From Nevskia sp. (GTDB taxonomy: Bacteria > Pseudomonadota > Gammaproteobacteria > Nevskiales > Nevskiaceae): a DNA stretch of 40,577 bases. Positions 1 to 17,293 of this stretch are shown here, in pieces. The stretch spans positions 1 through 40,577 of the forward strand of contig JAQGNU010000164.1 in assembly GCA_028291645.1 (NCBI GenBank), given 5' to 3'. The notes beneath the pieces were generated by a model, which saw nothing but the letters and a program-made list of their open reading frames with translations, was not told where the DNA came from and did no database searches. The translations under genes were made by a program, and so were the position numbers. Within the stretch, counting starts at the first letter, position 1. Each line of letters opens with the position of its first letter.

Positions 1-1182
1 TTTGCCGGCCATGCCGCGCATGTCAGCGGCGATCTCACCGACATCGTCAGCAACATCGGCCTGGTGCGCGCGTTCGGCGCCGCACGCCGCGAGCAGGAGC
101 GCCTGAGTCTCAAAATCAAGGACGAAATGCAGGCGCAGCGCGCGTCCTTGCGTTCGCTCGAACGGCTGCGCCTGTTCCATGCCTTCACCGTGTTCGGCGT
201 CACCGCCGGCGTGCTGATCTGGTCGGTCGAACTCTGGCGCCGCGGCGAAATCTCCACCGGCGACGTCGTGCTGACCACCACGCTCGGCTTCACCGTGCTG
301 CATGCCTCGCGCGACTTCGCGATGGCGCTGGTGGACATGGTGCAGCAGTTCGCCAAACTCGGCGAAGCGGTGCAGGTGCTCGGCCTGCCGCACGAAATGC
401 AGGATGCGGCGGATGCGCAGCCGCTCGAAATACGCGGCGGCGCAATCCATTTCAGCCGGATCAGTTTCAGCTATCCGAGCGGCCAGAGCGTGCTGACCGA
501 TTTCGAGCTCGACGTGCCGGCCGGACAGAAAGTCGGGCTGGTCGGCCGCTCCGGCGCCGGCAAGTCGACCATCATCGCGCTGCTGCAAAGACTCTACGAT
601 CCCGACACCGGCGCAGTCGTCATCGACGGCCAGAACATCGCGCAGGTCACCCAGCAGAGCTTGCGCGGTTCGATCGCGGTGGTGCAGCAGGACATCTCAC
701 TGTTCCATCGTTCGCTGCTGGAGAACCTGCGCTATGGACGTCCCGATGCGAGCGACGAGGAAGTGTTCCGCGCGGTCGAAGCGGCGCGCTGCACCGAGTT
801 CATCAACAACCTGCCGCAAGGCTTCGACACGCTGGTCGGCGAGCGCGGCATGAAGCTCTCCGGCGGCCAGCGCCAACGTCTGGCGATTGCGCGCGCGTTC
901 CTGATGGATGCGCCGATCGTGCTGCTCGACGAAGCGACCTCGGCGCTCGATACCGAATCCGAGCAGTCGATCCAGGAAGCGCTGTCGCGGCTGTTCAAGG
1001 GCCGCACGGTGATCGCGATCGCGCATCGTCTGTCGACGCTCGATGCCTTCGACCGCATCGTCGTGCTCGACCGCGGCCGCATCATCGAGGACGGCGCGCC
1101 GACGCAACTCCTGCTGAGCAAAGGCGTCTATAGCCGTATGTACGGTCGCCAGCTGAGCGCCGGCGCGGAGCAACATCCATGA
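1..1182 (+). CDS. ABC exporter, MsbA-type permease/ATPase, C-terminal part
   Basis: The reading frame is open from base 1, so the start lies outside the window; 393 residues are visible. The first ~115 residues are the end of a transmembrane domain (hydrophobic stretch near residues 60-75). A full nucleotide-binding domain follows: Walker A GRSGAGKST near residue 182, signature LSGGQRQRLAIAR near 286, Walker B IVLLDEATSALD near 306, and the H-loop in AIAHRLST near 341. Fused membrane-ATPase half-transporters of this kind act as homodimers in the inner membrane and export lipids, lipid A core or hydrophobic compounds. The substrate here cannot be told from sequence. The stop overlaps the start of the next gene (ATGA), suggesting translational coupling with the lipoprotein gene. 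The family call is firm; msbA itself is not proven. Confidence 0.9.
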   Translation, partial: FAGHAAHVSGDLTDIVSNIGLVRAFGAARREQERLSLKIKDEMQAQRASLRSLERLRLFHAFTVFGVTAGVLIWSVELWRRGEISTGDVVLTTTLGFTVLHASRDFAMALVDMVQQFAKLGEAVQVLGLPHEMQDAADAQPLEIRGGAIHFSRISFSYPSGQSVLTDFELDVPAGQKVGLVGRSGAGKSTIIALLQRLYDPDTGAVVIDGQNIAQVTQQSLRGSIAVVQQDISLFHRSLLENLRYGRPDASDEEVFRAVEAARCTEFINNLPQGFDTLVGERGMKLSGGQRQRLAIARAFLMDAPIVLLDEATSALDTESEQSIQEALSRLFKGRTVIAIAHRLSTLDAFDRIVVLDRGRIIEDGAPTQLLLSKGVYSRMYGRQLSAGAEQHP

Positions 1183-1868
1183 TCGAAATCAAATCCTGCG
1201 GTAGCCAGCACTGGCGCCAAGTCGCCCTATCGCTGACGATCGCGGCGGCGGTGTCGGCTTGCACGAGCACGCCGGTTGCCGACAGCTCGACTGCTGGCGT
1301 CAGCGCCGCGCCAGCTGAGGTCGTCGTCGACACGCCGACGCCGCCGGATGTCGATGCGCCATCAGCCAACAGCGACGCGCTGCCGAGCAACACCGAAATC
1401 GTGCTGCCCGCCTGCGTGCCGTTGGAACCGAAGCCGAAACCGAAGCCGAAACCGAAACCGGTGCCGAAAGAAGCACCGCCGCAACCGCAGACCGATGCAT
1501 CCGTAAGCGCGATTCCGGCGGGCGGCGTGATCGATGCCGATGTGCAGTCGCTGAGCAGTTCGGTGGTCTCGATCCTCGGCAAGAAAGTGCAGGGTCCGCA
1601 AGGCGAAGACCTCGGCCGCGTGGTCGACGTGCTGGCCGATGCCAGCGGTCGCGTGCGTGTCGCCATCATCGACTTCGGCGGCTTCCTCGGCGTCGGCAAC
1701 CGCCGCATCGCGGTCGATTGGCCGCTGCTGCGCTTCAATCCCGACGACCAGGACAAATCTCTGATCCTCAGTCTGAGCCGCGAAAAACTGCAGACGGCGC
1801 CCGAGTACAAGGACTCGACGCATCCGCAAGCGCTGATGGTGCCTGCCGCCGCGAAACCCGCGCCGTAG
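1179..1868 (+). CDS. PRC-barrel domain lipoprotein
   Basis: A 229-residue protein starting with an ATG that overlaps the stop of the ABC exporter. The N-terminus is a signal peptide ending in a lipobox-like VSAC (Cys28), so lipidation is likely. A low-complexity Pro/Thr/Ala linker follows, with an alternating Lys-Pro run near residues 84-95 (KPKPKPKPKP), of the kind used to span the periplasm. The C-terminal ~90 residues resemble a PRC-barrel (ILGKKVQGPQGEDLGRVVDV, then AIIDFGGFLGVGNRRIAVDW). PRC-barrels are small beta domains found in RimM, photosynthetic reaction centre H subunits and many envelope proteins of unknown role. Only 7 bp separate it from the MFS gene, so the first three genes probably form one transcript. 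Confidence 0.8.
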   Translation: MIEIKSCGSQHWRQVALSLTIAAAVSACTSTPVADSSTAGVSAAPAEVVVDTPTPPDVDAPSANSDALPSNTEIVLPACVPLEPKPKPKPKPKPVPKEAPPQPQTDASVSAIPAGGVIDADVQSLSSSVVSILGKKVQGPQGEDLGRVVDVLADASGRVRVAIIDFGGFLGVGNRRIAVDWPLLRFNPDDQDKSLILSLSREKLQTAPEYKDSTHPQALMVPAAAKPAP

Positions 1869-1875
1869 TGAATCC

Positions 1876-3159
1876 ATGCCAGCCGTGGCCGACATCGACC
1901 CGCCGGCGCGTCCACCCTCCGCAGACAACGCGGTCGCGGGCCGTGGCCTCGATTGGTTCAACCTGTTCGTCGCCAATATCCAGACCGGCTTCGGCCCGTT
2001 CATCGCGGTCTATCTAAGCAGTCAGAGCTGGACCCAGACCTCGATCGGTCTGGCCTTGAGCATCGGTACCATCAGCGCGATGGCGAGCCAGGTGCCGGCC
2101 GGTGCGGTGGTCGATGCGATGCCGAACAAGACGCGCGTCGCCGCGTTCAGCGTGCTGGTGTTCACCGTCAGCGCGCTGATGTTCGCGATCTATCCGATCC
2201 CGCTGTTCGTCTACCTCGCCGAAATCCTGCACGGCGTTTCCAGCTGCACGCTGGGTCCGGCGATCGCGGCGATGAGCCTGGTGATCGCCGGCCGCTTCGG
2301 CATGGGCCTGCGGCTCGGCCGCAACGCACGCTACGCGGCAATCGGCAACGGCGTCGGCGCTGCACTGATGGGCGCCTGCGGACAATACGTGTCCGAACGC
2401 GCGGTGTTTTTCCTGACCGCCGCGCTGACGCTGCCGGCGCTGGTGGCGCTGCTGCCGCTGCGCCGCTTCGCCATCGCCGGCGCCGACTTGCAGCCGCCGA
2501 AACATCAGCCAGGGCAGAGCCGCGCGCAATTCCTGCGCGTGCTGGCGGATCGCCGGCTGTTGATTTTCTGCGCCTGCGCGATGCTGTTCACCTTCGCCAA
2601 CGCGCCGATGCTGATGCTGATCAGCGGCACCATGACCGCGAAGGTCGGCAACCCGAGCCTGCTGATCGCCGCCTGCATCGTGCTGCCGCAGATGATCGTG
2701 GCGCTCGCCTCGCCAAGCGTCGGCCGTCTCGCCGAGCAGCGCGGCCGCCGCATCGTATTGATGCTCGGCTTCATCATGCTGCCGCTGCGTGGTTTGTTGT
2801 TCGCGACGGTGACGAGCCCGGCGCTGGTGGTTGCGATCCAGGCCCTCGACGGCATCGCCGCCGCCTGCTTCGGCATCATGGTGCCGCTGATCGTCAGCGA
2901 CGTCGCCGCACGTTCCGGCCACTTCAACCTGTCGCTCGGCTTCGTCGGTTTCGCCATCGGCATCGGCGGCACCTTGAGCACGCCGGCCGCCGGCTGGCTG
3001 GCCGATCACTTCGGCACCCAACTCGCGTTCTCCGGCCTCACCGGCGTCGGCATCGCCGCAGTGTTGCTGGTGTTGTTCGCGATGCCGGAGACGCGGCCGA
3101 AAGCCGATGGAGATGATGCGCCCAGCACGACGGCGCAAACTCCGCTGGCACACGCCTGA
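1876..3159 (+). CDS. MFS transporter
   Basis: A 427-residue polytopic membrane protein with about 12 hydrophobic segments, a cytoplasmic loop rich in charge near the middle (RRFAIAGADLQPPKHQPGQS), and MFS-like loop motifs (AGAVVDAMPNKTR between TM2 and TM3; GRLAEQRGRR in the second half). It belongs to the drug:proton antiporter-like part of the Major Facilitator Superfamily; the substrate is unknown. It probably follows the lipoprotein in one operon. Its last 157 bases recur at 5878-6034 with no gaps and, by my count, 14 mismatches (about 91% identity), which marks the edge of the accessory region. This full-length copy is the resident gene. Confidence 0.88.
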   Translation: MPAVADIDPPARPPSADNAVAGRGLDWFNLFVANIQTGFGPFIAVYLSSQSWTQTSIGLALSIGTISAMASQVPAGAVVDAMPNKTRVAAFSVLVFTVSALMFAIYPIPLFVYLAEILHGVSSCTLGPAIAAMSLVIAGRFGMGLRLGRNARYAAIGNGVGAALMGACGQYVSERAVFFLTAALTLPALVALLPLRRFAIAGADLQPPKHQPGQSRAQFLRVLADRRLLIFCACAMLFTFANAPMLMLISGTMTAKVGNPSLLIAACIVLPQMIVALASPSVGRLAEQRGRRIVLMLGFIMLPLRGLLFATVTSPALVVAIQALDGIAAACFGIMVPLIVSDVAARSGHFNLSLGFVGFAIGIGGTLSTPAAGWLADHFGTQLAFSGLTGVGIAAVLLVLFAMPETRPKADGDDAPSTTAQTPLAHA

Positions 3160-3299
3160 GCGTGCTACCGAAGCTGTAGCGAAACGGGCGGCCCTGCGAG
3201 AATGCGGCTCGGTCCGCAGTTCGGACGCAGCACTTTGCGGCCAACAGCGATTCAGCGGCGGCTCCAACAACCGCGCCCGCATCGATCCGCGGAGTCCAC

Positions 3300-4244
3300 T
3301 CAGCCGGCACGGCCTTTCGCGGCACGACGCGCGGCCGCATTCGCCTTGGCTTCATCGCGGCGCTCACGGATCAGCTCGATCAGCGCCCGCAGACCCGCAG
3401 GCACATGGCGGCGGCCAGGGTAGTACAGGCACAGTCCCGGGAACGGCGGCGTCCAGTCTTCGAGTACGCGTCGCAGCTTGCCGGCGGCGAGGTCGGCGGC
3501 GACGTTCCATTCGCTGAGGTAGCCCAGCCCAAGCCCCTTCAACACTGCTTCCAGAATCAGTGTGGACTCGTCGAGCGTCAGCGGCCCCTGCACGTCGACG
3601 GTGAGTGATTCGCCGCGCTTCTCGAACTCCCATCGGTAGATCGCGCCGCTCGCGAGACGATTGCGGATACAGCTGTGCGCCGCCAGATCGGCGGGCGTGC
3701 GCGGGATCGGATGGCGGGCAAAATATGCCGGTGCGCCGACGACTACCAACCGCTGTACAGGGCCAAAAGGCACCGCACTCATGTCCTGCGGCACGCTCTC
3801 GGCCAAGCGGATGCCGGCATCGAATCCGCCGCTGACGATATCGACCAGGCGTCCTTCGGTGACGAGGTCCACCTTCATTTCCGGATAGCGGCGCAGATAC
3901 TCCAGGATGATCGGCGTCATCAGCTGGCGTGCGGCGCCGGCGGACGTATTGATGCGCAAGGTGCCCGACGGCGTGTTGCGATGACTGCCGGCCTGCTCCA
4001 TGGCGCTGCGGATTGCGCTGAGCGCAGGTGCGACGCCGGCAACGAACTGCTCGCCCGCCTCGGACAGCGACACGCTGCGCGTGGTGCGGTTAAACAGCCG
4101 GACGCCGATGCGCGTTTCCAGCGCCGCGACGGTGTGGCTCAGCGCGGAGGTCGACATTCCCAGATCGGTCGCGGCTGCGCGGAAGCTGCGGTGACGCGCA
4201 ACCGCGAGTATCGCCTCCAACTCGATCAGACCGGAGGACCGCAT
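3300..4244 (-). CDS. LysR-family transcriptional regulator
   Basis: A 314-residue LysR-type regulator. The start chosen gives [20 protein letters not shown], the usual few residues before the helix-turn-helix ([23 protein letters not shown]). An upstream in-frame ATG at 4352 would add 36 residues of unlikely sequence and overlap the neighbour. The C-terminal part is the periplasmic-binding-like effector domain. It is transcribed away from the aldehyde dehydrogenase gene, the standard layout for a LysR protein controlling its divergent neighbour, and the shared intergenic region holds clear palindromic half-sites (4284-4310). The effector is unknown; an aldehyde or its precursor is a reasonable inference. 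The gene lies in the accessory region between the two MFS 3' ends. Confidence 0.9.
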
Positions 4245-4283
4245 TGTCCTGATTCCATCAAGAGCTCGTCCAGTTTTGTACGG

Positions 4284-4310
4284 CTTATCAGCGCAATGAT
4301 AAGGCCTTAT
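4284..4310. promoter_or_regulatory. Interlocking palindromes, likely LysR operator
   Basis: Between the divergent LysR and aldehyde dehydrogenase genes the sequence has CTTATCA, a 6-base spacer, then TGATAAG (4284-4303, perfect 7-base arms). The right arm is also the left half of a second perfect palindrome, ATAAGGCCTTAT (4299-4310). Three half-sites in alternating orientation next to both starts match how LysR tetramers occupy recognition and activation sites. The sequence is seen; the binding role is inferred. Confidence 0.6.
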
Positions 4311-4344
4311 GTTGAGCGTCACATCCATATGCAGCGGAACACCC

Positions 4345-5772
4345 ATGCGCACAATCGACCAGATTTACATTGACGGCGCCTTCGTCACGCCCCACGGCGA
4401 CGAGCTATTCGACCTGTTCAATCCCGCGACCGCGAAAGTCATCGGCCAGGTGCGGCTGGCAGACGCGGAAGACGCACGCCGCGCCATCGCCGCCGCCAAG
4501 CGCGCCTTCCCGAGCTTTTCACGCACCGACAAGTCCGCCCGCATCGACATGCTGAAGCGCCTGCATGCGGCGGTCGATGCACGCACCGACGAGTTGACCG
4601 AAGCGGTAATCGAGGAATACGGCGCGCCGGTGTCCCGCGCACGCTGGATGGCAAAGCACGCGGCTAGCGTGCTGCTCGATGCGGCGGAGTTGCTCGAAAG
4701 CTACGACTTCATCCGCCGCGCTGGGACCGCCGAGGTGGTGATGCAGCCACTGGGCGTGGCCGGTTTAATCACCCCTTGGAACAGCAATGCCGGCTTCATC
4801 TGCGGCAAGCTCGCCGCCGCAATTGCCGCCGGCTGTACCTCGGTCGTCAAGCCCAGCGAGATGAGCGCGATTCAAACACGGATCGTCACTGAGGCCTTGC
4901 ATGAAGCCGGGCTGCCGGCGGGCGTATTCAATATCGTCACCGGACGCGGCGAGACCGTCGGTGCGGCCATCAGCGCACATCCGGATGTGGCGAAAATCTC
5001 CTTCACCGGTTCCACCGCGGTGGGCAAGTCCATCCTGCGCAGCAGCGCCGAGACGCTCAAGCGCGTCACGCTGGAACTCGGCGGCAAGTCGCCGGTGGTG
5101 ATTCTCGACGACGCCAACCTGGTCGAGGCGGTACCGATGGCGCTTCAAGCGGGTTTCATGAATAGCGGCCAGGCCTGCATCGCCGGCACGCGCATGCTGG
5201 TGCCGCAGAACCGGCTGGCCGAGGTCGAATCGCTCGCACGCACCGCCGTCGAACAGACCCGCACCGGCGATCCGCGCGACCCCGATACGGCAATCGGTCC
5301 GATGGTCAGCCAGAAGCAATGGGACCGCGTGCAACGCTACATCCGCATCGGCATCGACGAGGGCGCCAAGCTGCTGGCCGGCGGTGAAGGACGGCCGCAG
5401 GGACTCGATGCCGGTTGGTTCGTACGACCGACCGTGTTCACCGACGTGCGCAATTCCATGACGATCGCCCGCGAGGAAATTTTTGGCCCGGTGCTCGCCA
5501 TCATCACCTACCGCGATGAGGCGGAAGCGATCGCCATCGCCAACGATACGGACTACGGCTTGCAAGCCTATGTGCTGTCGTCCGACCTGGCGCGGGCACA
5601 TGCCGTCGCGTCGCGCATCGACGCCGGTCGCGTGCTGATCAACACCCTCGCGCATGAGCCCAAGGCGCCCTTCGGCGGCTTCAAGCACTCCGGCATCGGC
5701 CGCGAATACGGCAGCTTCGGACTGGAAGCCTTCCTCGAACCGAAGTCAGTGCTGGGCATACACGCAACCTGA
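4345..5772 (+). CDS. NAD(P)+-dependent aldehyde dehydrogenase
   Basis: A 475-residue member of the aldehyde dehydrogenase superfamily, which oxidises aldehydes to carboxylic acids with NAD(P)+. The catalytic cysteine is Cys278 in NSGQACIAGTR and the general base Glu244 in LELGGKSP; their spacing of 34 residues is the family norm. The coenzyme site is visible at PWNSNAGFICGKLAAAIAAG, followed by KPSE. The start at MRTIDQIYIDG is preferred to the upstream in-frame ATG at 4309, because that ATG lies within the operator palindrome and adds residues foreign to the family. The gene is divergent from the LysR regulator and was probably followed by a short-chain dehydrogenase, of which only a stub remains. 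Such pairs serve alcohol and aldehyde catabolism; the substrate cannot be assigned. Confidence 0.92.
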   Translation: MRTIDQIYIDGAFVTPHGDELFDLFNPATAKVIGQVRLADAEDARRAIAAAKRAFPSFSRTDKSARIDMLKRLHAAVDARTDELTEAVIEEYGAPVSRARWMAKHAASVLLDAAELLESYDFIRRAGTAEVVMQPLGVAGLITPWNSNAGFICGKLAAAIAAGCTSVVKPSEMSAIQTRIVTEALHEAGLPAGVFNIVTGRGETVGAAISAHPDVAKISFTGSTAVGKSILRSSAETLKRVTLELGGKSPVVILDDANLVEAVPMALQAGFMNSGQACIAGTRMLVPQNRLAEVESLARTAVEQTRTGDPRDPDTAIGPMVSQKQWDRVQRYIRIGIDEGAKLLAGGEGRPQGLDAGWFVRPTVFTDVRNSMTIAREEIFGPVLAIITYRDEAEAIAIANDTDYGLQAYVLSSDLARAHAVASRIDAGRVLINTLAHEPKAPFGGFKHSGIGREYGSFGLEAFLEPKSVLGIHAT

Positions 5773-5810
5773 CACCGCAATTCAATATCAGTAGCTTCAA
5801 GAATTGACCT

Positions 5811-5846
5811 ATGGACATGCAGCTTGAGGGCAAGCGCGCCCTCATA
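5811..5846 (+). pseudogene. 5' stub of a short-chain dehydrogenase gene
   Basis: About 40 bases after the aldehyde dehydrogenase stop, an ATG opens MDMQLEGKRALI, which matches the first residues of classical short-chain dehydrogenases just before the TGxxxGIG nucleotide loop. The match then stops: the sequence runs into a short GC-rich junction and the MFS 3' fragment in another frame. I read it as the remnant of the third gene of a LysR/ALDH/SDR cluster, cut when the segment was joined to its present neighbour. The resemblance rests on only 12 residues. Confidence 0.45.
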
Positions 5847-5877
5847 AGAGCGCGCGCGAAACGCGCAAGCGGCTATT

Positions 5878-6034
5878 CGATCACTTCGGCGCCCAACTGG
5901 CGTTCTCCGGCCTCACCGGCGTCGGCATCGCCGCGGTGCTGTTGGTGCTGTTCGCGATGTCGGAGACGCGGCCGAAAGCCGATGGAGATGATGCACCCAG
6001 TGCGGCGGCGCCAACGCCGCTGGCGCACGCCTGA
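5878..6034 (+). pseudogene. Second copy of the MFS transporter 3' end
   Basis: The stretch encodes DHFGAQLAFSGLTGVGIAAV through to the stop and aligns without gaps to the last 157 bases of the MFS gene (3003-3159); I count 14 differences, most of them silent. Weaker similarity continues past the stop (GAAGCTGTAGCGAAACGG is present in both copies, at about 3170-3187 and 6047-6064). There is no start or upstream part, so it is a non-functional fragment. The divergence level suggests the homologous gene of a related strain or species rather than a fresh local duplication. Confidence 0.9.
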
Positions 6035-6201
6035 ATATGTGTTGCTGAAGCTGTAGCGAAACGGCTAATTCTGGAGTGATGCTGGGTTTCCGCTGCGGTC
6101 CAACCCAGCCTGCCGTACCGCTCCTCATCCCGGTTCGGCGGTAGACTGAGGCAGCAGAATCTGCTAGCAAGCTCGATCAACCGGACGCAACAAATTCGCG
6201 T

Positions 6202-6822
6202 ATGTCAGACCTGTTTCAAGAACCGCTGCGAAGCTCGGTCCCTATCGACCTTCCGGACGCCCGCATTCTGTTTTTTCGCCAAGCACTATCACCCAGCGAC
6301 GCCCAACGTTACTTCGATGATCTCTATGAATCGGTTCAATGGACTGAAGAGGAGGTCGTCGTTTGGGGAAAACGACACAAGCAACCACGCTTAGTTGCTT
6401 GGTTCGGCGATCCCGGCGCGAAGTACACATACTCTGGCTCAACATTGAATCCTCAGCCCTGGACGCCACTGCTGCAGCAGTTGCGCTCGGAAATTGAAGA
6501 GCTGGCCGACGCAAGGTTCAACAGTGTCTTGCTCAACCTTTACCGCAACCACCTTGATCGCATGGGATGGCATAGCGATGACGAGCCAGCCCTAGGTCGT
6601 GATCCGATCATAGCTTCACTGAGCTTGGGTGAATCGCGAATCTTTCAAATGAAGCACAAACGCCGCCCAGAGCTTGGAATTAAGTCGTTCGAGCTGGCTT
6701 CGGGCAGCCTACTTTTGATGTCGGGTTCGACACAACGTTACTGGTTGCATTCGGTTAGAAAGGAATCACGGCCTGTAGCGGCCCGCATTAACTTAACTTT
6801 TAGACGGATCGTAGGCGCTTAA
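6202..6822 (+). CDS. AlkB-family 2-oxoglutarate/Fe(II) dioxygenase
   Basis: A 206-residue AlkB homologue. The iron ligands are visible: His124 and Asp126 in WHSDDE and His183 in WLHSVRK. The 2-oxoglutarate-binding arginines lie in RINLTFR (Arg195, Arg201). A tyrosine-containing segment (FGDPGAKYTYSG) resembles the ALKBH2/3-like branch. Enzymes of this family oxidatively remove alkyl groups such as 1-methyladenine and 3-methylcytosine from DNA or RNA. Base composition and codon use are clearly AT-richer than the flanking genes, a sign of transfer. Its stop is 12 bases before the next start, so it forms an operon with the methyltransferase gene. No good Shine-Dalgarno sequence precedes its start. 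Confidence 0.93.
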   Translation: MSDLFQEPLRSSVPIDLPDARILFFRQALSPSDAQRYFDDLYESVQWTEEEVVVWGKRHKQPRLVAWFGDPGAKYTYSGSTLNPQPWTPLLQQLRSEIEELADARFNSVLLNLYRNHLDRMGWHSDDEPALGRDPIIASLSLGESRIFQMKHKRRPELGIKSFELASGSLLLMSGSTQRYWLHSVRKESRPVAARINLTFRRIVGA

Positions 6823-6834
6823 GAGGAGGGTGCG

Positions 6835-7671
6835 ATGAAGTGTTTCGACGTGGTTCAGACCGTACTGGATGCGACTTACGAAGAAGTCCCAGATAAAAGT
6901 GGGAAGAGGGATGCCTCGATTACGAAAGCACTTAAGAAGATGAGCGATCAGTACAAGAAGCACTTGATGGATGAAGGCGGCCCCGATTTTGACGATCCAG
7001 CAACAAGGTTCGGCTACGTGTTCAAATATGTCCCAGCGCATGCTCACTGGCTTTTTGAACTGATCAATGAATGCCCTCAGGCTGAAGCCGTGCTGCTGAA
7101 CGGCAAAGCGCGTATAGCTTGCATTGGTGGCGGCCCCGGCAGTGACGTTGTTGGCGTTCTTAAGTATCTCGACGAGAAGAACGTTGAGTGCAAGCTCTTC
7201 GTCGAATTGATTGATGGTTGCGAAGCTTGGAAGTCAACATGGAGCGATCTAGCCTTCCAACTCGATTGGGACGATTCACTTCACACCGACTATGTGATCC
7301 ATGACGTCAGCGATGAGGATACTTGGTCGTCTCCTTGCAAGATTGGCAAGGCCGACATCATCACGCTCAACTTCTTCGTGTCTGAGGTGTTCCACCTAGG
7401 CACTGCAAAGAAGTATCTAAACAAAATGCTGGCCGACACGAAATCCGGCGCCCTTTTGTTCGTAAATGACAATCGCACGAGCGACGTATGGGAACTGATA
7501 GACAAGATCGCGGCTGAGTGCGAATTTAAAACGCTTCGGTCGGAGATGGGCGAGCGTAAAATTTACGACTGGGGCGAGAGCCTTGATACGTTGAAGATTT
7601 ATGCCGCCAAGTTTGGGGAGACGTCGAGGCTCACGGGCAAGATGTTTTGGCGCGTCTACCAGAAGCAATAG
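6835..7671 (+). CDS. Putative class I SAM-dependent methyltransferase, unknown target
   Basis: A 278-residue protein I cannot assign to a named family. It has a Rossmann-type SAM motif I, IACIGGGPGSD near residues 93-103, at the end of a beta strand, then an acidic post-strand position in ELIDGCEAW (motif II), and a motif IV-like strand ADIITLNFFVSEV. The N-terminal ~85 residues are helical and charged and may form a substrate-binding lid. A strong ribosome binding site (AGAGGAGGG) lies just before the ATG. It shares the AT-richer composition of alkB and sits 12 bp behind it, so the two were probably acquired and are expressed together. The target could be nucleic acid, protein or a small molecule; a link to alkylation or RNA modification is inferred from context only. 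Confidence 0.65.
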   Translation: MKCFDVVQTVLDATYEEVPDKSGKRDASITKALKKMSDQYKKHLMDEGGPDFDDPATRFGYVFKYVPAHAHWLFELINECPQAEAVLLNGKARIACIGGGPGSDVVGVLKYLDEKNVECKLFVELIDGCEAWKSTWSDLAFQLDWDDSLHTDYVIHDVSDEDTWSSPCKIGKADIITLNFFVSEVFHLGTAKKYLNKMLADTKSGALLFVNDNRTSDVWELIDKIAAECEFKTLRSEMGERKIYDWGESLDTLKIYAAKFGETSRLTGKMFWRVYQKQ

Positions 7672-7762
7672 AAGATCATCGTCACCCGACCGCATTCTGG
7701 GATTGCTGGTCTCTGACCTAGTTTCTAACCAGACTACTAAAACTACTAAACCCGGCTCGGAT

Positions 7763-7778
7763 ATCAGTAGCTACTGAT
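7763..7778. repeat. 16-bp perfect palindrome
   Basis: ATCAGTAGCTACTGAT is a perfect inverted repeat just downstream of the decayed debranching-enzyme fragment. It lies between that fragment and the end of the methyltransferase gene. There is no T-tract, so a terminator role is doubtful; it may be a junction scar or a binding site. Confidence 0.35.
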
Positions 7779-7780
7779 CT

Positions 7781-8030
7781 TCAGTGGCACACCAGCACCG
7801 CAACTTCCCACTCCCCGCCAAGTCACCGTCACTTCGCCGCCGTAACGATGAAAGCGCACGTCAACCGAATCGCGGTTCAGACGCAGATTGCGCAGATGCA
7901 ATTCGTCGAGGAAGGCCAGCGGCACCGGACGATAGAGCGCGATCTCGCCGCTGCGATCGGCCGGTTCTTCCGAGCGAAGTGCTGGGCCAGCCTATGCATC
8001 GACGCCACCGGCTTCACACCGGCCAGATAC
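7781..8030 (-). pseudogene. Decayed second copy of the debranching-enzyme 3' end
   Basis: Read on the minus strand, the segment encodes DRSGEIALYRPVPLAFLDEL then HLRNLRL, closely matching DRSNEIAFYRPVLPDFLDEL and HLRNLRL near the C-terminus of the intact gene at 8749. Nucleotide identity over the best ~138 bases is roughly 80% by eye. The last codons need one base removed (near 7810) to give VAVLVCH and a stop, matching VVVVVRH of the intact protein. Upstream, similarity fades through an in-frame stop to about 8030. It is a frameshifted remnant from a diverged homologue. Nothing else recognisable lies in 8031-8220 apart from the ribosome binding site of the next gene. Confidence 0.85.
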
Positions 8031-8220
8031 CAGCAGTTCGATTCCTCATTTGCCGCACTCCCCCGAATTTGGCCCAATCGTTGCGGCATCTCCGCGCACG
8101 CCGGCAGGACTCTCGTACCGAAGTCGCGCCGGACAGCTTGCCGTGAATCTTCGCAATGACGCGAATTTCGCAACGACGCGAATACGGAGCATCGAATCTA
8201 TGACATGAAGGAGAATCCCC

Positions 8221-8685
8221 TTGAGAGCTTTTTATGCGGTGGCGGTGTTGGCGGCGGCAGTCGTGAGTGGCACTTGCATTGCGGACGATCTTTCCGCGGC
8301 GAAAGCCGAAGAATTGCTGCAACCGGTGATGCCCAAGGACTGCGGCAGTTATTACACCTCGCAAGGCGAGCCTGACTTTGCCGATATCGAGGACAAGACG
8401 TTTTGCACTTACAAGCCGCGTGTGACCCGCATCGTGATGGGAACCAACAGCGCGACCGCCGAGTACAACCGCGACCGTCATTTCGATAACGATCTGTCGG
8501 TCGCATGGCTCAAGGACTACGCAAAAATGCAGTCGCATACGACGCCGTCGCTGCTGTTCCAGAAACTCAAATCCAATCTGGACAAGTGGCGCGCCGACGG
8601 CGCGGTTGACCGGGCGCCGCGGCCGGGCAAGGCGACATTCAAACTCGACGCCGGTGGCTGGCAGGTGGATTCCGCGCCGCAGTAG
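8221..8685 (+). CDS. Small secreted protein of unknown function
   Basis: A 154-residue protein starting at TTG, supported by a good ribosome binding site (AAGGAGA, 5 bases upstream). The N-terminus is a signal peptide (FYAVAVLAAAVVSGTCIA) with likely cleavage before DDLSAAKAEE. The mature part has two cysteines (MPKDCGSYY and DKTFCTYKP) that could form a disulphide in the periplasm, and a C-terminus with a WQVDSAP motif. I do not recognise a family. It sits between the decayed copy and the intact copy of the debranching enzyme, and is convergent with the latter. Confidence 0.65.
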   Translation: MRAFYAVAVLAAAVVSGTCIADDLSAAKAEELLQPVMPKDCGSYYTSQGEPDFADIEDKTFCTYKPRVTRIVMGTNSATAEYNRDRHFDNDLSVAWLKDYAKMQSHTTPSLLFQKLKSNLDKWRADGAVDRAPRPGKATFKLDAGGWQVDSAPQ

Positions 8686-8748
8686 CCTGAGCTGGCGCGG
8701 GCTTACAGAGCGCGCCGATGCCTGCGCCGGCGATTCACTCTTGCCGTC

Positions 8749-10956
8749 TCAGTGCCGCACCACCACCACAACATCGCCATCGCGGCGCGTCACCGTTACC
8801 GCCACTTCGTCGCCATGACGATGCAAGTGCACGTCGGCCGAGCCGCGCCTCAGGCGCAGATTGCGCAGGTGCAGTTCGTCGAGGAAATCCGGCAGCACCG
8901 GGCGATAGAACGCGATCTCGTTGCTGCGATCGAGCAGTTCCAGTCCGAGACTCGATTGCAGCAGCGACAGCATCGTCGCACTGGCCCAGGCCTGCGGCGA
9001 GCAGGCCACCGGATACTGCGTCGGCGCATTGCGCTGGCGTCGCGAGAAGCCGCAGAACAATTCCGGCAGGCGCCGCAGGTCCATGTAGGTCGCTGCATCG
9101 AACAGGCCGCTGAACACCTGCGCGGCGGCCTGCTTGTGGCCATAGCGTGCGAGACCGAGCGCGATCAGTCCGTTGTCGTGCGGCCACACCGAACCGTTGT
9201 GGTAGGACATCGGGTTGTAGCGCAACTCGGACAGTCCGATGGTGCGGATGCCCCAGCCACTGAAGCAGGCCGGGCCGAGCAAAGTCTGCGCGACGCGTTG
9301 CGCGCGCTCCGGGCTGGCGATGCCCGTCAGCAACACTTGTCCGGAATTCGACGACACCACGCGGCAGGCTTGCTTGGCGCCGTCCAGCGCGAGCGCGTAG
9401 ACCGACAATTCCTCGCACCAGAATTTCTCTTCGAAGTTCTGCCGCAGGGTTTCTGCCTGCGCCTGCAGGCGGTCGGCCTGCTGCTGGTGGCCGAGTGCCG
9501 CAGCGAGCAGCGCCGCATGGCGTTTGGCGCCATAGACGTAAGCCTGCACTTCGCACAGCGCGATCGCACCTTCGGCGTAATGCCCGTTGCGATGGAACAC
9601 TGCGTCCTGCGAATCCTTCCAGCCCTGATTGGCAAGGCCTTCGCTGGTCTGCCGGTAATATTCGACGAAGCCATCGCCATCGCGATCGCCGTAGGTATCG
9701 ATCCAGTGAAGTGCGGCTTCGGCGTTGGGCCATAGCGCACGCACGGTGTCGAGATCGCCGCTGCGGACGAAATATTCGCCGAGCAGCACGACGAACAGCG
9801 GTGTCGCATCGACGCTGCCGTAGTAGCGGCCGAACGGCACTTCGTGCAACGCCGCCATTTCGCCGTGCCGCATCTCGTGCAGAATCTTGCCCGGCTCGGC
9901 ATCGCGCTGCGGCTCGATCGCAGTGGCCTGCGTCGCCGCGAGGAATCCGAGTACACCCTTGGCGATACTGGGATCGAGCCACAAGGTCATCAACGCGGTG
10001 ACGATGCCGTCGCGTCCGAACGGCGTGCTGAACCAGGGCGTGCCGGCATAGGGATACGGCCCCTGCGGCGTATCGGTGATCAGCATGTAAAGATCGGACA
10101 CTGCACGCCGCGCGACTTCGTTGAACAGCGAATTGGAACTGTCGACGCTCGCGGCACGCGCGCTGGAGGTGCGCAGCGCGCGACGCGCGGCGCGCATCTG
10201 CCGATAGAACAGACGGCCATTCCAGTCGCTGACCGTTGCGTCGGGCACGCCGATGCGGATGAAGATGCGGCGCGCTTCGTGCGGCTGCAGCGCGACTTCA
10301 AAACTGGCACGCGCACTGGTCAGGATTTTCGGCGGCGGATCGAACGCCAGCTGGGTCAGGCGCTCGACTTCATCGAGTCCCAGGTAACGCAGCATTACGC
10401 TGCGGTCGCTTTCGCGCGCGGCCGAACTCTCGCCGCGCCGCGCGCGCTGCTCGCCGCGCACCTCGAACAGATCGGCGAAGTCGGCGGCGAAGCGCAGGCT
10501 CAGGCGCACGCTCAAGGGCTGGTCGCTGAAATTGCGCACCAGCAGGCGCTCGTAACACGCACCGTTCCAGATGAACTTGAGTCGATGCAGATGAATCTGC
10601 TCGCGGCGCAGCGCGATCTGTCCGTCGCGCAACAGATCCGGATTGCTCAGGTCGGCGCTGAACACCGCGTTGTCGTCCTGCGTCATCGAACTCAGCAGCA
10701 GCGGCCGCGCGTCTTCCAGCAACAGTTCGAGCTGCGACAGGATGCGCGTGTCGCGGTGATATAGCCCTTCGGAATTGCCGGGCTCGCCGCCGATGTCGCC
10801 GCGATGATCGAACACGGCAAAAGTATCGCCATGCTTCAGCGTGCGCGTGCGCCGTTCCTGCAAGGATGCGCTCGCGGAAATATGGAACTGCGGCACCGGC
10901 CCTTCGTCCACCGACGGGCCTGTCGCTGGGGAATCTACCAATACGGATGAATTCAC
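8749..10956 (-). CDS. Amylo-alpha-1,6-glucosidase / glycogen debranching enzyme-like protein
   Basis: A 735-residue enzyme with the two-part layout of this family. The N-terminal beta-rich domain starts near LKHGDTFAVFDHRGDIGGEP and includes GLYHRDTRILS. It is followed by an (alpha/alpha)6 catalytic domain with FSTPFGRDGIVTALM, YYGSVDATPLFV, GWKDSQDAV and YHNGSVWPHDNGLIA. Such enzymes act on alpha-glucan or related oligosaccharides; exact specificity is not visible. The start chosen is GTG (VNSSVLVDSP), preceded by GGAG at good spacing. The frame stays open much further upstream, but that part lies across the divergent glycosyltransferase gene and is antisense. Divergence with a GT4 gene suggests shared control in glycan or compatible-solute metabolism. 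Confidence 0.88.
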   Translation of the reverse strand: MNSSVLVDSPATGPSVDEGPVPQFHISASASLQERRTRTLKHGDTFAVFDHRGDIGGEPGNSEGLYHRDTRILSQLELLLEDARPLLLSSMTQDDNAVFSADLSNPDLLRDGQIALRREQIHLHRLKFIWNGACYERLLVRNFSDQPLSVRLSLRFAADFADLFEVRGEQRARRGESSAARESDRSVMLRYLGLDEVERLTQLAFDPPPKILTSARASFEVALQPHEARRIFIRIGVPDATVSDWNGRLFYRQMRAARRALRTSSARAASVDSSNSLFNEVARRAVSDLYMLITDTPQGPYPYAGTPWFSTPFGRDGIVTALMTLWLDPSIAKGVLGFLAATQATAIEPQRDAEPGKILHEMRHGEMAALHEVPFGRYYGSVDATPLFVVLLGEYFVRSGDLDTVRALWPNAEAALHWIDTYGDRDGDGFVEYYRQTSEGLANQGWKDSQDAVFHRNGHYAEGAIALCEVQAYVYGAKRHAALLAAALGHQQQADRLQAQAETLRQNFEEKFWCEELSVYALALDGAKQACRVVSSNSGQVLLTGIASPERAQRVAQTLLGPACFSGWGIRTIGLSELRYNPMSYHNGSVWPHDNGLIALGLARYGHKQAAAQVFSGLFDAATYMDLRRLPELFCGFSRRQRNAPTQYPVACSPQAWASATMLSLLQSSLGLELLDRSNEIAFYRPVLPDFLDELHLRNLRLRRGSADVHLHRHGDEVAVTVTRRDGDVVVVVRH

Positions 10957-11166
10957 GCGCTTGCTCCGGTCGTCACAATGGTGGCTTGCAGAAAATGGCG
11001 TCGACCGCTCGGTGCGGGCGCCGACACGGCTAGCAGACCTTATAAGAGTCGATCCGCGGCGATCCGTTCCACATCGAACAATATCCGATTGGAACCGAAT
11101 CGATTCGCGCACGTCCAAAGCTTGCGCATTGCGCCCCAAACCCAAACCCGAAAACGGAAATCGAAT

Positions 11167-12213
11167 ATGAGAATCGCGCAGGTTGCGCCGCTGACTGAGG
11201 CTGTGCCACCGAAACTGTACGGCGGCACCGAACGCGTCGTTGCCTATCTGACCGATGCGCTGGTCGAACTCGGCCATGAAGTCACGCTGTTCGCATCCGG
11301 CGACAGCCTGACCAAGGCCAAGCTCGCACCGATCTGGCCGCGCGCGCTGCGGCTCGATCCGAGCGTGCGCGATTACTTCGCGCCGGTCTTCATGGAACTG
11401 GAAACGGTCGCGCGCCGCGCCCACGAGTTCGACGTGATCCACGCCCATCTCGACTACTTCGGCTACCCGCTGCTGCGGCGCCTCAATGTGGCGTCGGTGA
11501 CGACGCTGCACGGCCGCCTCGATCTGCCGGAACTGCCGCCGCTGTACGGTCTCTACGGCGACATCCCGGTGGTATCGATTTCCGATTCGCAGCGCGGACC
11601 GCTGCCGCAGGCGAACTACGTCGCGACGATTCATCACGGCCTGCCGCAGAACCTGCTGGAGCAGGGTTCCGGCGCCGGTGGCTATCTCGCCTTCCTCGGC
11701 CGCATCTCACCGGAAAAAGCACCGGACGCAGCGATCCGCATCGCCGCCAAGGCCGGCATGTCGCTGAAGATCGCGGCCAAGATCGACCGCGTCGACGAGG
11801 AATACTTCAAGACCACGATCGAGCCGCTGCTATCGCAAGCGCACGTCGAGTTCATCGGCGAAATCGGCGAGCATCAGAAAAGCGAATTCCTCGGCAATGC
11901 CGCCGGACTGATTTTTCCGATCGCCTGGCGTGAACCCTTCGGGCTGGTGATGATCGAAGCGATGGCCTGCGGTACGCCGGTGGTCGCGTTCGAGAACGGC
12001 TCGGTGCCGGAGGTAATCGAGCACGGCATCACCGGCTTCATCGTACAGAATGAAAACGAAGCCGCCGAAGCGGTGCGCCAGATCGGCACGCTCGATCGCA
12101 GCCGCATCCGTGCCGAATTCGACCGCCGCTTCACCGCACATCACATGGCGGAAAATTATCTGACGCTGTACGCCCGGCTGATCAAAGCACAGCGCAACGG
12201 CACCAAGCTCTAG
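11167..12213 (+). CDS. Glycosyltransferase family 4 protein
   Basis: A 348-residue GT-B fold glycosyltransferase. The N-terminal half has the acceptor-side motif MRIAQVAPLTEAVPPKLYGG; the C-terminal half has the nucleotide-sugar site with the EX7E motif EPFGLVMIE (Glu256, Glu264) followed by AMACGTPVVAF. The start at MRIAQVAP is the conserved family start; an earlier in-frame start would add unrelated residues. Proteins of this subgroup transfer a hexose from a nucleotide sugar and often lie next to debranching-type enzymes, as here (divergent, 210 bp apart). The acceptor and sugar are not known. A long inverted repeat follows the gene. Confidence 0.88.
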   Translation: MRIAQVAPLTEAVPPKLYGGTERVVAYLTDALVELGHEVTLFASGDSLTKAKLAPIWPRALRLDPSVRDYFAPVFMELETVARRAHEFDVIHAHLDYFGYPLLRRLNVASVTTLHGRLDLPELPPLYGLYGDIPVVSISDSQRGPLPQANYVATIHHGLPQNLLEQGSGAGGYLAFLGRISPEKAPDAAIRIAAKAGMSLKIAAKIDRVDEEYFKTTIEPLLSQAHVEFIGEIGEHQKSEFLGNAAGLIFPIAWREPFGLVMIEAMACGTPVVAFENGSVPEVIEHGITGFIVQNENEAAEAVRQIGTLDRSRIRAEFDRRFTAHHMAENYLTLYARLIKAQRNGTKL

Positions 12214-12230
12214 GGAACCTCTGCATAGCT

Positions 12231-12340
12231 TGTCATGCCCGCGAAGGCGGGAATCCAGTTTCCTTTAAGACTATTGACGAGGTCCCCGGCTTTACAGGGG
12301 ATGCGGCAAGAACTGGATGCCCGCCTCCGCGGGCATGACG
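12231..12340. repeat. Long inverted repeat, REP-like extragenic element
   Basis: Two 30-base arms at about 12231-12260 and 12311-12340 are reverse complements with three mismatches; the arm core is CATGCCCGCGAAGGCGGG. They are separated by about 50 bases. Each arm also has an internal CCCGCgaaGGCGGG-type hairpin. This word is a common extragenic palindrome in proteobacterial genomes. It lies just after the GT4 stop and may also aid termination or mRNA stability. Confidence 0.75.
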
Positions 12341-12501
12341 ATGTAGGAGGAGCCTGCGCAGGAGATCCTTAGGTCGATCGTCCGCCGGCGGCGGCGCGCT
12401 CGACAAGACGCAGTCGTCGCGACGCCGGTTTGACGCTGCGTTTTGCGGCTGCTCACAATGCGCACGGCGCCGCACCGGCGCAGCGCAGGTGCCGCGACCG
12501 C

Positions 12502-13137
12502 ATGCCGAAAGCCGCCGAGCAGCTGGCCTTGTTTGCGGATCTGCCGCCGGCCGCGCGTCAGCGCAAGAGCGCGGTACGCGCGCGATTCTTTTTCGCACTC
12601 TGGCCGGGTGAGCTGGTGCGCACGCAATTGAACGCTGCGGCGGCGACGATTCCGCCGGGCAGCGCGCGTGCGCTGCGGGTCAAGCCTGAGCGGTATCACC
12701 TGACGCTGGCGTTCCTCGGCGCATTGCAGCCGCAGCAGGTCGAAGCCGCGCAAAAAGCCGGCTCGGCGGTAGCGGCGGCGGCGTTCCGGCTGCAGCTCGA
12801 CACGGTGGGTTACTTCAGCGGCCCGCGACTGGCCTGGATCGGACCGCAGGCGGCGCCGTCCGAGCTGCTGCGACTGAAAGCCGAACTGGATCGCGAACTG
12901 CTGCATCTCGGTCTGCCGGTGGAGCGCAACCAGTTCCAGCCGCATGTGTCCTGCCTGCGCGGACTCGACGATGCACCCGATGCGCCGAGCGTCAGCATCA
13001 GCTGGCCGATCGACGAATTCGTGCTGATGCGCAGCGCGATCAAGGACGGCGTCACCATTTACAAACGCATCGGCCGCTGGCGCATGGCAGCGCGCAGCGG
13101 CAGCGTGCCGACGGCTGCACTGCCGGAACTCCTCTGA
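12502..13137 (+). CDS. thpR: RNA 2',3'-cyclic phosphodiesterase
   Basis: A 211-residue member of the 2H phosphoesterase family, formerly called 2'-5' RNA ligase. Two catalytic HxTx-type motifs are visible: HLTL (His66) and HVSC (His148, with Ser in place of the usual Thr). The start at MPKAAEQLALF is preferred to an earlier in-frame ATG at 12430 because it lies just before the conserved RARFFFALWPGE strand. Family members hydrolyse RNA 2',3'-cyclic phosphate ends to 2'-phosphates in the cytoplasm. It is convergent with the EcsC-like gene, with only 3 bases between the stops. Confidence 0.88.
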   Translation: MPKAAEQLALFADLPPAARQRKSAVRARFFFALWPGELVRTQLNAAAATIPPGSARALRVKPERYHLTLAFLGALQPQQVEAAQKAGSAVAAAAFRLQLDTVGYFSGPRLAWIGPQAAPSELLRLKAELDRELLHLGLPVERNQFQPHVSCLRGLDDAPDAPSVSISWPIDEFVLMRSAIKDGVTIYKRIGRWRMAARSGSVPTAALPELL

Positions 13138-13140
13138 ACT

Positions 13141-13983
13141 TCAGTCGTTCTCGATGGCCGCGTGCGCTAGCACGGGACCGCCCGGCAGCTCACCATACTT
13201 CTGCCGCAGCCAGCGCAGCTGGAACACGCGCTGTGCATTGCGCGCGACATCGTGCAGATACCAGGCGTTGACCGAGCCGCTGATCAGCGCACCGGTGACC
13301 GGCACCGTGCCGGCGGCCTTGCGCCAGCCGAGGTGTTTGGCGAGCTGCCTGGCGAGATTGTTGAGGCTCAGCATCGCCGCGTCCTTGACCAACTCGCGCT
13401 GCGCGGCGCGCTCGATACCGGCGCGCCACTGCGCGGTGTGGCGCTCGGATTCCTGCTCGATCGCGCGCAGCGCCGCCTGCTTTTCGTCGAAATCATTGGC
13501 CGAGGCCAGCGCGAAGATCGCGATCGGCAGACGCCGCTGCAAGGCGCCGGAACAATCCTCGCCGTAGCTCAGGCCGACGCGGTGGATGGTACGCAAGGTC
13601 TGGATCAGCAGGGTCGGCACGTCGGCGATCAGGCCGAAGCTGCCGGCCACGCCGAAGGCGCCGCCGCTGATGCCGGCCAGCGTGATCGCGCGACGACTGA
13701 TCGCACTGGCGACGCGGTCGCAGGTTTCCAACGGCAGGCCCAGCAGATCTTCAAGCTGGTCGACGCCGGCACGGCGCAGAATCGAGCGACGGTCGCTGAG
13801 CCGCACCGCGGCGGTATGCGCGGCGTCGAGCGCCAGCTTCAGCGCTGCCGTCGGCACGGTTTTCTGCACGGTCTGCGCCGCGGCACCGCGCACCTTGCCG
13901 AGCGTGCGCGTCGCCGGGCCCGGCATCTCGGCCAGCCATTCGCGGATCGTCGCGAGTTGCTCGCGCTCGTAGATCGTCAGCAT
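13141..13983 (-). CDS. EcsC family protein
   Basis: A 280-residue protein resembling the EcsC family: the N-terminus MLTIYEREQLATIREWLAEM, then a glycine-rich hydrophobic region (AGISGGAFGVAGSFGLIADV) and a second one near the C-terminus (AAGTVPVTGALISGSVNAWY). EcsC was named from the Bacillus ecs locus but its biochemical role is unknown; the hydrophobic segments suggest membrane association. The start used matches the conserved family N-terminus; an in-frame ATG at 14061 would add 26 residues. Confidence 0.8.
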   Translation of the reverse strand: MLTIYEREQLATIREWLAEMPGPATRTLGKVRGAAAQTVQKTVPTAALKLALDAAHTAAVRLSDRRSILRRAGVDQLEDLLGLPLETCDRVASAISRRAITLAGISGGAFGVAGSFGLIADVPTLLIQTLRTIHRVGLSYGEDCSGALQRRLPIAIFALASANDFDEKQAALRAIEQESERHTAQWRAGIERAAQRELVKDAAMLSLNNLARQLAKHLGWRKAAGTVPVTGALISGSVNAWYLHDVARNAQRVFQLRWLRQKYGELPGGPVLAHAAIEND

Positions 13984-14083
13984 CGGTTTGTTCAAGGCGT
14001 CGGTTCTCGTCGTTGCATGCGCTGCGCAAGGCTGATGTCGTCGCAGGCGCGATTGATTCACGCATAAGCTTCTACACTACCGT

Positions 14084-14893: not shown

Positions 14894-14902
14894 GCCGCGT
14901 CT

Positions 14903-15679: not shown

Positions 15680-15787
15680 AGTCGCTCCTTTATCCTGTTA
15701 TCCGAACTTTCCACTCGTTGTTCTCAAGACGCCGCGCGTTCGTAGCGTGCGCGGCGCCGCCCCATTATCGACCCGGAACCCATCTTT

Positions 15788-17044: not shown

Positions 17045-17131
17045 GAGCTTTCACCTTTCTTGTGAATGCTTAGTTGTGACAACGCCGTTGCGCGATTGAT
17101 TCCGCCGAATTGTGTGCCGCGCGCCGGCCTT

Positions 17132-17293
17132 TTAGCCGAGCAGATCGTCGAACAGGCGGCGTCCGTAATACAGCCCGACCCCGCCACCGACTGCGCTCAC
17201 GATCACCGCGGCGGGCAGGGCCCACTGCGCGCCCAACCACCAGCCGAACGAACCCAGCAGAAATGCGCCGAGCGTGCCGAAGATGAATTTCAT
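17132..17293 (-). CDS. Small glycine-rich membrane protein, 53 residues
   Basis: A short minus-strand frame encodes 53 residues beginning MKFIFGTLGAFLLGSFGWWL and ending GRRLFDDLLG. Two hydrophobic segments (residues 3-20 and 27-43) are separated by GAQWALP, and the end YYGRRLFDDLLG is amphipathic. This is a credible two-helix inner-membrane miniprotein rather than chance, since the bias is strongly hydrophobic and glycine-rich in this frame only. No clear ribosome binding site. It lies between the 158-residue gene and the DUF2520 gene on the same strand. Confidence 0.6.
   Translation of the reverse strand: MKFIFGTLGAFLLGSFGWWLGAQWALPAAVIVSAVGGGVGLYYGRRLFDDLLG

Follow-up and report, generated by a model that had tools for sequence, protein, structure and literature searches.

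A convergent gap in a Nevskia genome that may hold a layered record of DNA captures with two gene-tail scars

In Nevskia sp. (assembly GCA_028291645.1), an intact MFS transporter gene and a glycogen-debranching-type gene face each other across 5.6 kb. The locus was examined within a window comprising the whole stretch of DNA analysed (40,577 nucleotides of contig JAQGNU010000164.1), and its features are collected in Table 1. Three cargoes occupy the gap: a LysR-type regulator gene with an aldehyde dehydrogenase gene (LysR-ALDH) on the MFS side, an alkB-type gene with a putative methyltransferase gene in the middle, and a gene for a 154-residue protein on the debranching side. Second, inner copies of the 3' ends of both neighbours also lie in the gap. 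The initial annotation had placed alkB and the methyltransferase gene between these inner copies, and the matches to PF13532 and PF11312 were found there.

Table 1. Features of the gap between the MFS and debranching genes (window coordinates)
Feature	Position	Strand	Evidence and remarks
MFS transporter gene, intact	1876..3159	+	Pfam MFS_1 8.6e-34; 3' end is the outer copy; orthologue faces the debranching gene in 8 relatives
Outer copy of MFS 3' end	3003..3187	+	final 157 nt of gene plus 28 bp past stop; 88.8% to 5878-6064
LysR-type regulator, cargo 1	3300..4352	-	Pfam; 82% nt match over 3350-5772, elsewhere in G003
Aldehyde dehydrogenase, cargo 1	4309..5772	+	Pfam Aldedh 1e-155; same G003 match (3350-5772, 82% nt)
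Candidate truncated SDR-type gene start (MDMQLEGKRALI)	5811..5846	+	translation
Inner MFS 3' fragment	5871..6064	+	open frame, stop kept; left edge sure to ~10 bp
alkB-type 2OG-Fe(II) oxygenase, cargo 2	6202..6822	+	PF13532 9e-38; GC 52.7%
Putative SAM methyltransferase, cargo 2	6835..7671	+	PF11312 1e-6, 28.6 bits vs cut-off 26; GC 50.4%
Inner debranching 3' fragment	7781..7967	-	decayed, indels break frame; weak homology onward to ~8013
154-residue protein gene, family-less in Pfam/NCBIfam/PADLOC, cargo 3	8221..8685	+	homologues 59-67% in kin
Outer copy of debranching 3' end	8749..8940	-	78.1% to 7781-7967
Glycogen-debranching-type gene, frame open, start codon uncertain	8749..10980	-	GDE_N_bis 2e-60, GDE_C 5e-10 (scan on 8749-11037)

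When the whole window was compared with itself by BLAST (E<=1e-3), both gene ends were recovered as direct repeats. The MFS pair (3003-3187 and 5878-6064) aligned over 187 columns at 88.8% identity (E 4e-64) and the debranching pair (7781-7967 and 8749-8940) over 192 columns at 78.1% (E 2e-36); all other matches were short inverted ones of 25-34 bp. The inner copies keep the order and orientation of the outer gene ends, as the initial annotation had stated. For the MFS copy it had counted 14 mismatches over 157 bases, which proved exact (14 of the 17 listed mismatches fall within 3003-3159). The debranching copy is 82% identical over 7822-7967, a stretch without gaps. The inner MFS copy continues past the stop codon by 28 bp (to 3187/6064). 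The inner debranching copy is 5 nt shorter overall, and its similarity fades at about 7967-8013. Both inner tails begin abruptly inside the genes. Each pair is a long direct repeat of roughly 190 bp from the target gene, with one copy at either end of a cargo: LysR-ALDH for one pair, the 154-residue gene for the other.

As a control, 76 of 80 loci (four under 12 kb were excluded; 1.6 Mb, mostly Bradyrhizobium and unmatched in lineage) were searched against themselves for direct repeats 100-500 bp long, separated by 0.3-8 kb, less than 98% identical and with E<=1e-20. One repeat pair was returned. It flanks a debranching match just outside it, on both sides, and by eye it resembles a palindromic dispersed repeat more than a gene end.

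In all eight relatives in which the MFS and debranching genes were found facing, the two stand tail to tail without cargo, their spacing ranging from an overlap of 56 bp to a separation of 287 bp. Among the genomes found, only the one under study (G000) carries cargo in this gap. Hence the 5.6-kb interval is inserted, which bears out the earlier proposal that the convergent gap served as an insertion site. To the left and right of the insert the window matches the relative G017, at 1-3098 and 8751-18620 (comparison with 18 kb of G017). Both outer genes, MFS and debranching, have open frames and orthologues in kin, and each adjoins a cargo; any gene-side insertion would show the same. By eye, no clear mosaic break was seen in the outer genes in their identity to three relatives. 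Intergenic pieces of the window were also aligned locally to the gaps in four relatives, with no firm result; one of 24 comparisons reached p<0.02 (G017 with 7968-8220, a gappy alignment).

The GC content is about 65% for LysR-ALDH, 50-53% for alkB-methyltransferase and 60% for the 154-residue gene. LysR-ALDH has its homologue elsewhere in G003, and homologues of the 154-residue gene are located at other places in G006, G001, G012 and G028; genes that surround the cargo copies in G003 and G012 have counterparts on other contigs of G000. The 154-residue protein was without a Pfam, NCBIfam or PADLOC match. For alkB, no match was obtained in 17 other genomes of the genus, the best in the family being 51%. 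No copy of the methyltransferase was seen in 60 relatives or in 368 other genomes drawn from across the class (the sets overlap), and no relative of it was seen in viral contigs or phages; two distant matches (21-26%) were located on cyanobacterial plasmids. Judged by GC and distribution, the alkB-methyltransferase pair is low-GC and foreign, and the different GC and different distribution of the cargoes in kin fit separate origins.

Five cargo proteins scanned against Pfam showed no integrase or transposase match, the 154-residue one matching no family. A mobile element with attachment repeats was discarded on this ground, together with the lack of a viral or phage relative of the methyltransferase. 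An element integrated at the 3' end of a gene would likewise be expected to bring a site-specific recombinase, and no such family was seen among the five proteins. The fragment MDMQLEGKRALI behind ALDH, possibly the truncated start of a gene that we take to be SDR-type, suggests a broken gene at the end of cargo 1. No SDR gene was present downstream of ALDH in the four relatives' loci examined (G003 by search match and ORF list; G027, G071 and G006 by translation). The 11-mer ATATCAGTAGC is common to 5785 and 7761 and has 3 copies in the genome; it was dropped as a joint mark, being absent from the 16 relatives' loci scanned. A ComEC-type competence gene is present in this genome, but also in 10 of 14 control genomes.

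Compared with the outer gene, the inner debranching copy has 20 amino-acid-changing and 5 silent codons among 58, along with frame-breaking indels. Both tails were analysed with a simple, home-made codon model (optimum reliable to about 0.3 lnL) on one fixed tree, in which the support of the G012+G000 node is 52%. For the inner debranching branch, selection throughout (lnL -1102.40) was rejected against a model with neutral time (lnL -1093.83; 2dlnL 17), and a neutral clock common to the inner and outer copies fitted at a cost of 0.7 lnL (lnL -1094.55). By its codons, its broken frame and this model comparison, the inner debranching copy has decayed in the manner of dead sequence. In the 9 bases past the stop it is like G017 at 8, against none for the outer gene. 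Towards the other 8 relatives the scores are 1-3 of 9 (inner) and 1-4 of 9 (outer), the likeness being to G017 alone. Owing to these G017-like bases, the inner debranching end looks like the displaced original, and the outer junction like the new one. Among the placements tried on the tree, the best for the inner copy was beside the outer gene (AU 0.937); of the six others, three were rejected at 5% and three were not.

The inner MFS copy has 5 changing and 9 silent codons among 51 compared with the outer one. In its best model the copies first diverged under selection and then evolved neutrally for a short time, 0.08 per codon (lnL -607.40). Taken by itself, the MFS test discriminates weakly: selection only gave -608.40, neutral evolution only -608.40 to -608.74, and a shared neutral clock -611.04, which is worse by at least 2.3 lnL than neutral evolution without the clock on these small data. 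The MFS copies may thus be alleles that diverged under selection rather than a fresh duplication; gene conversion between them could also mimic youth. No position was favoured for the inner MFS copy on the relatives' tree, and by eye it is the outer copy, not the inner, that has more G017-like bases past the stop.

A single neutral time for both tails fitted worse (2dlnL 7.7 on a grid and 6.5 on reduced data, for 51 + 58 codons under the simple model). Changing codons numbered 20/58 on the debranching side and 5/51 on the MFS side (Fisher p=0.003), or 12/43 and 2/33 in the reduced data (p=0.018); the nonsynonymous to synonymous ratio in the reduced data was not significantly different (p=0.066). 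It appears that the two tails did not become dead sequence at the same time. Such unequal decay points to separate events, a suggestion of the initial annotation that finds support here.

With slightly better than even confidence, we regard the 5.6 kb as the layered product of several independent captures of DNA by the convergent gap, two of which left gene-tail scars, and we infer the following mechanism. Incoming linear DNA would have been homologous to one neighbour, the debranching gene in one event and the MFS gene in the other. Recombination would have taken place at the homologous end, the other end being joined without homology inside the tail of the resident gene. The neighbour would thereby receive the incoming copy as its new 3' end, with the cargo next to it, while its old 3' end, displaced to the far side of the cargo, would persist as dead sequence. 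The 154-residue gene would have come with the event on the debranching side, presumably the older, and LysR-ALDH with the broken gene start in the younger one on the MFS side. The alkB-methyltransferase pair, between the two tails, would have arrived separately by a route without a trace found here.

Such a joining of linear DNA, by homology at one end and without it at the other, is described as homology-facilitated illegitimate recombination (HFIR; PMC3240628). There, as here, foreign DNA is added beside a homologous anchor; that process was shown in the laboratory, whereas the present locus offers the expected products alone, and no donor with MFS-LysR-ALDH or 154-debranching was found. One-sided recombination of this kind is reported to occur less often than the ordinary homologous type by several orders of magnitude (PMC5361080), which counts against the captures proposed. 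The same paper proposes HFIR for the T6SS effector/immunity arrays of Vibrio cholerae, in which repeated one-sided insertions displace old genes and 3' ends downstream, as is proposed here; in those arrays one module is displaced repeatedly from one side, whereas here both sides of a convergent gap and unrelated cargo are involved (PMC5361080). Small variable segments between strains are also insertions between genes, about 10% of them flanked by direct repeats, and illegitimate recombination is named in a section title on them (PMC2884548); the cargo here is larger and leaves gene-end scars.

Restriction-modification genes can insert with long target duplication (Nobusato 2000, as described in PMC3031569), leaving long direct target repeats around the cargo as in the present case, although our cargo is not a restriction-modification unit and the two copies of the MFS end may have diverged as alleles. 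It is rather unlikely, in our estimate, that LysR-ALDH and the 154-residue gene each entered a neighbour's tail in this manner, duplicating about 190 bp without a homologous donor. The direct repeats of the target gene around both cargoes agree with it, as does the fit of a neutral clock on the debranching side, but the clock is disfavoured on the MFS side (-611.04 vs -608.74, small data), and the outer debranching gene is without the post-stop sequence common to the inner copy and G017. The initial annotation had instead proposed that one donor allele from a relative, MFS'-alkB-MTase-debranching', was pasted whole into the gap. We consider this unlikely, even though the inner pieces have the order and orientation of such an allele, MFS' may be an allele diverged under selection, and alkB-MTase is foreign by GC and distribution. 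The two tails decayed differently; debranching' is best placed beside the outer gene, is compatible with a clock common to both and has the G017-like bases; two illegitimate joints and two further insertions would be required; and no relative with this arrangement was found. In a variant, the donor's debranching tail may already have been dead on arrival.

That plain segmental duplication or template switching copied the gene ends, unlinked to the arrival of cargo, is very improbable: the copies are direct, close and partial, but each pair brackets a cargo, the eight relatives with facing genes have no cargo in this gap, and such repeats were rare in the 76 control loci, mostly of another lineage. 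Least credible is a metagenome assembly artefact fusing the alleles of two strains. The genome is a 234-contig assembly, but a two-strain joint alone would give neither a decayed, frame-broken tail nor three unrelated cargoes, and the window matches G017 on either side of the insert.

When small cargo without mobility genes enters a bacterial chromosome, the joints as a rule leave nothing behind, which makes the process difficult to observe. More tentatively than the history of separate captures itself, we suggest that the convergent gap could act as a two-sided capture trap, a recombinase-free stratigraphy in which the decay of each scar would date its capture. The evidence from this single locus is modest, and the proposed processes are already known. 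If the proposal is true, the gap between two ordinary metabolic genes would be a readable record of acquisition, with captures anchored in either neighbour. The tail fragments at these joints can be compared by their decay, and unequal neutral times would be a test usable at other convergent gaps.

When the window (contig C52 of the source genome G000, an assembly of 3.83 Mb in 234 contigs) was aligned with itself by BLAST, the 3' ends of both the MFS and the debranching gene were found to be repeated directly between the two stops. The 14 mismatches in 157 bases that the initial annotation had counted for the MFS repeat proved exact. From the MFS stop to the debranching stop the order was LysR, aldehyde dehydrogenase (ALDH), MFS' (the inner MFS fragment), alkB, a putative methyltransferase, debranching' (the inner debranching fragment) and a 154-residue gene. 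The control loci (76 loci, 1.6 Mb) yielded one comparable pair, apparently a dispersed palindromic repeat. Such repeats being rare in these controls, which were mostly Bradyrhizobium and not close kin, the two pairs of the window are a real feature. In one Bradyrhizobium locus, L141, the debranching gene is flanked by copies (3678-3782 and 6026-6126, 91%) that look like a palindromic dispersed repeat.

Features of the MFS-debranching interval and nearby repeats, in window coordinates
Feature	Position	Description	Basis
MFS stop	3159		
Debranching stop	8749		
MFS 3' end / MFS'	3003-3187 / 5878-6064	direct repeat, 88.8%	self-BLAST
Debranching 3' end / debranching'	8749-8940 / 7781-7967	direct repeat, 78.1%	self-BLAST
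Putative SDR gene start, first dozen codons (MDMQLEGKRALI)	5811-5846	end of LysR-ALDH cargo, just before MFS'	translation
alkB + putative methyltransferase	6202-7671	low GC, same strand, 12 bp apart	methyltransferase: Methyltransf_34 (weak)
11-mer ATATCAGTAGC	5785-5795 and 7761-7771	3 genome copies, two inside insert	
Possible dispersed intergenic repeat	6072-6115	89% matches of 37-44 bp on G000 contigs C92 and C84; palindrome	by eye (palindrome)
Inverted repeat	12219-12352	42-nt arms, 81% complementary	

When G000 and 60 relatives were searched at the protein level with the debranching gene, 12 of the 61 genomes, G000 counted, gave matches; for one of these, G057, the match was weak and partial, to the antisense part of the query. 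The named loci nearest to the window's debranching gene belonged to MAGs or isolates titled Rhodospirillales, Sinobacteraceae, Gammaproteobacteria and Nevskia soli. When the MFS-debranching interval was compared in relatives, as the initial annotation had suggested, 19 loci were scanned for MFS and the cargo proteins, 16 of them distinct (three were the same contigs under two names). MFS was present in nine. In eight of these the two genes lay tail to tail, with stops overlapping by 56 bp (G001) or 4 bp (L069), or separated by 19 (L068), 31 (G011), 53 (G006), 69 (G012), 70 (G003) or 287 bp (G017). The ninth, L074, was more distant (57% for debranching, 47% for MFS) and carried both genes on one strand. 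No MFS match was found in the other seven loci (G004, G020, G026, G031, L070, L072 and L073), some of whose contigs stop close to the gene. At E<=1e-3, LysR, ALDH, alkB, the methyltransferase and the 154-residue protein had no match in any of the 16 loci. Judged from this sample, therefore, the 5.6 kb was gained in the G000 lineage.

The decay of the inner tails was examined in alignments with six relatives (G017, G012, L068, L069, G003 and G006); G001 and G011 (and L070 for debranching) were also aligned but not used in the fits. On one fixed tree we fitted a purpose-written codon model that divides the inner branch into a neutral part and a selected part, the latter evolving under the selection that acts on the remaining branches. 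Beyond 33 codons the MFS tail could not be aligned with the relatives, whose sequences were masked there. Debranching' differed from the outer gene at 20 changing and 5 silent codons of 58, and a selected-only inner branch was rejected (lnL -1102.40 vs -1093.83). Its fitted neutral time was 0.45 per codon with the selected part absent, and tying this time to the outer gene's branch cost 0.7 lnL. MFS' differed from the outer copy at 5 changing and 9 silent codons of 51. Its best fit (lnL -607.40) combined a selected part with a brief neutral one of 0.08 per codon; neutral alone gave -608.74 (-608.40 in another fit), selected alone -608.40 and neutral with a clock -611.04, and taken alone the MFS test is weak. 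Forcing one neutral time on both tails cost 3.8 lnL on a grid (2dlnL 7.7). With data reduced to the 43 debranching codons before indels and the 33 MFS codons alignable with relatives, the cost was 3.24 (2dlnL 6.5); changing codons numbered 12 of 43 for debranching' vs 2 of 33 for MFS' (Fisher p 0.018), and the nonsyn:syn comparison gave p 0.066. The initial annotation had taken the unequal divergence to suggest different selection or separate events. These values, from short data and a simple model on a tree whose G012+G000 node has 52% support, favour separate events for the two tails without proving them.

Over the nine bases following the debranching stop, the inner copy matched G017 at eight and the outer gene at none; against the other eight relatives the inner copy matched at 1-3 and the outer at 1-4. 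By our own arithmetic, agreement at 8/9 or better would arise by chance about once in 9,000 comparisons, a probability of about 0.002 over the 18 comparisons. These G017-like bases suggest that the inner debranching tail was the resident end before it was displaced, and that the junction of the outer gene with the 154-residue gene is new. The best-supported position of debranching' was beside the outer gene (AU 0.937); among six alternatives, three were rejected at 5% and three were not. For MFS, 28 bp past the stop are common to both copies, and beyond the stop the outer copy is, by eye, slightly more G017-like, which counts against a simple mirror-image story. No position could be assigned to MFS' on the tree of the relatives, and the only likeness to its variable last 19 residues is in the outer copy.

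The cargoes differ in source. Their GC contents are about 65% for LysR-ALDH, 52.7% for alkB, 50.4% for the methyltransferase and 59.6% for the 154-residue gene, beside 64.6% and 67.6% for the two neighbouring genes. LysR-ALDH has an 82% match in G003 over 3350-5772 and more distant ones in G027, G006 and G071. The G003 copy adjoins what we take to be a wax-ester-synthase-like gene, and the genes surrounding it have counterparts on G000 contigs C18 and C211. Homologues of the 154-residue gene occur in 4 of 99 other genomes; in G012 its surroundings correspond mostly to G000 contig C58, while the gene itself has its G000 match in the window only. The methyltransferase was found in none of 60 relatives and none of 368 other genomes of a class-wide draw (some in both sets), had no match in phage records and no close relative in viral contigs, and matched two cyanobacterial plasmids distantly (21-26%). 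alkB was without a match in the rest of the genus (17 other genomes); its best one, 51%, lay in the family. The two genes are perhaps a methylation-demethylation pair. No recombinase family was detected among the five cargo proteins scanned.

At the end of the LysR-ALDH cargo lies what appears to be a broken gene start, presumably of the SDR family, followed by about 24 bp that could be assigned to no gene and then by MFS'. End-joining would be expected to produce such a fusion of a truncated start with a truncated tail. G000 also has a ComEC-type protein, which says little because it was also matched in 10 of 14 control genomes.

The nearest rival is insertion with a long target duplication, as described in PMC3031569, and it also fits the debranching side. 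Successive captures are preferred because they account most simply for the unequal decay, the displaced post-stop sequence and the unrelated cargoes. The one-sided captures proposed here would work like homology-facilitated illegitimate recombination, in which linear DNA is joined by homology at one end and without it at the other (PMC3240628). The gene-tail scars resemble the displaced 3' ends of Vibrio effector arrays, a setting in which the one-sided process is also described as rare (PMC5361080). On the simplest account, then, a convergent gap tolerant of insertion would have captured the cargoes one after another; two of these captures would have been one-sided, and both would have left a scar in the form of a gene tail.
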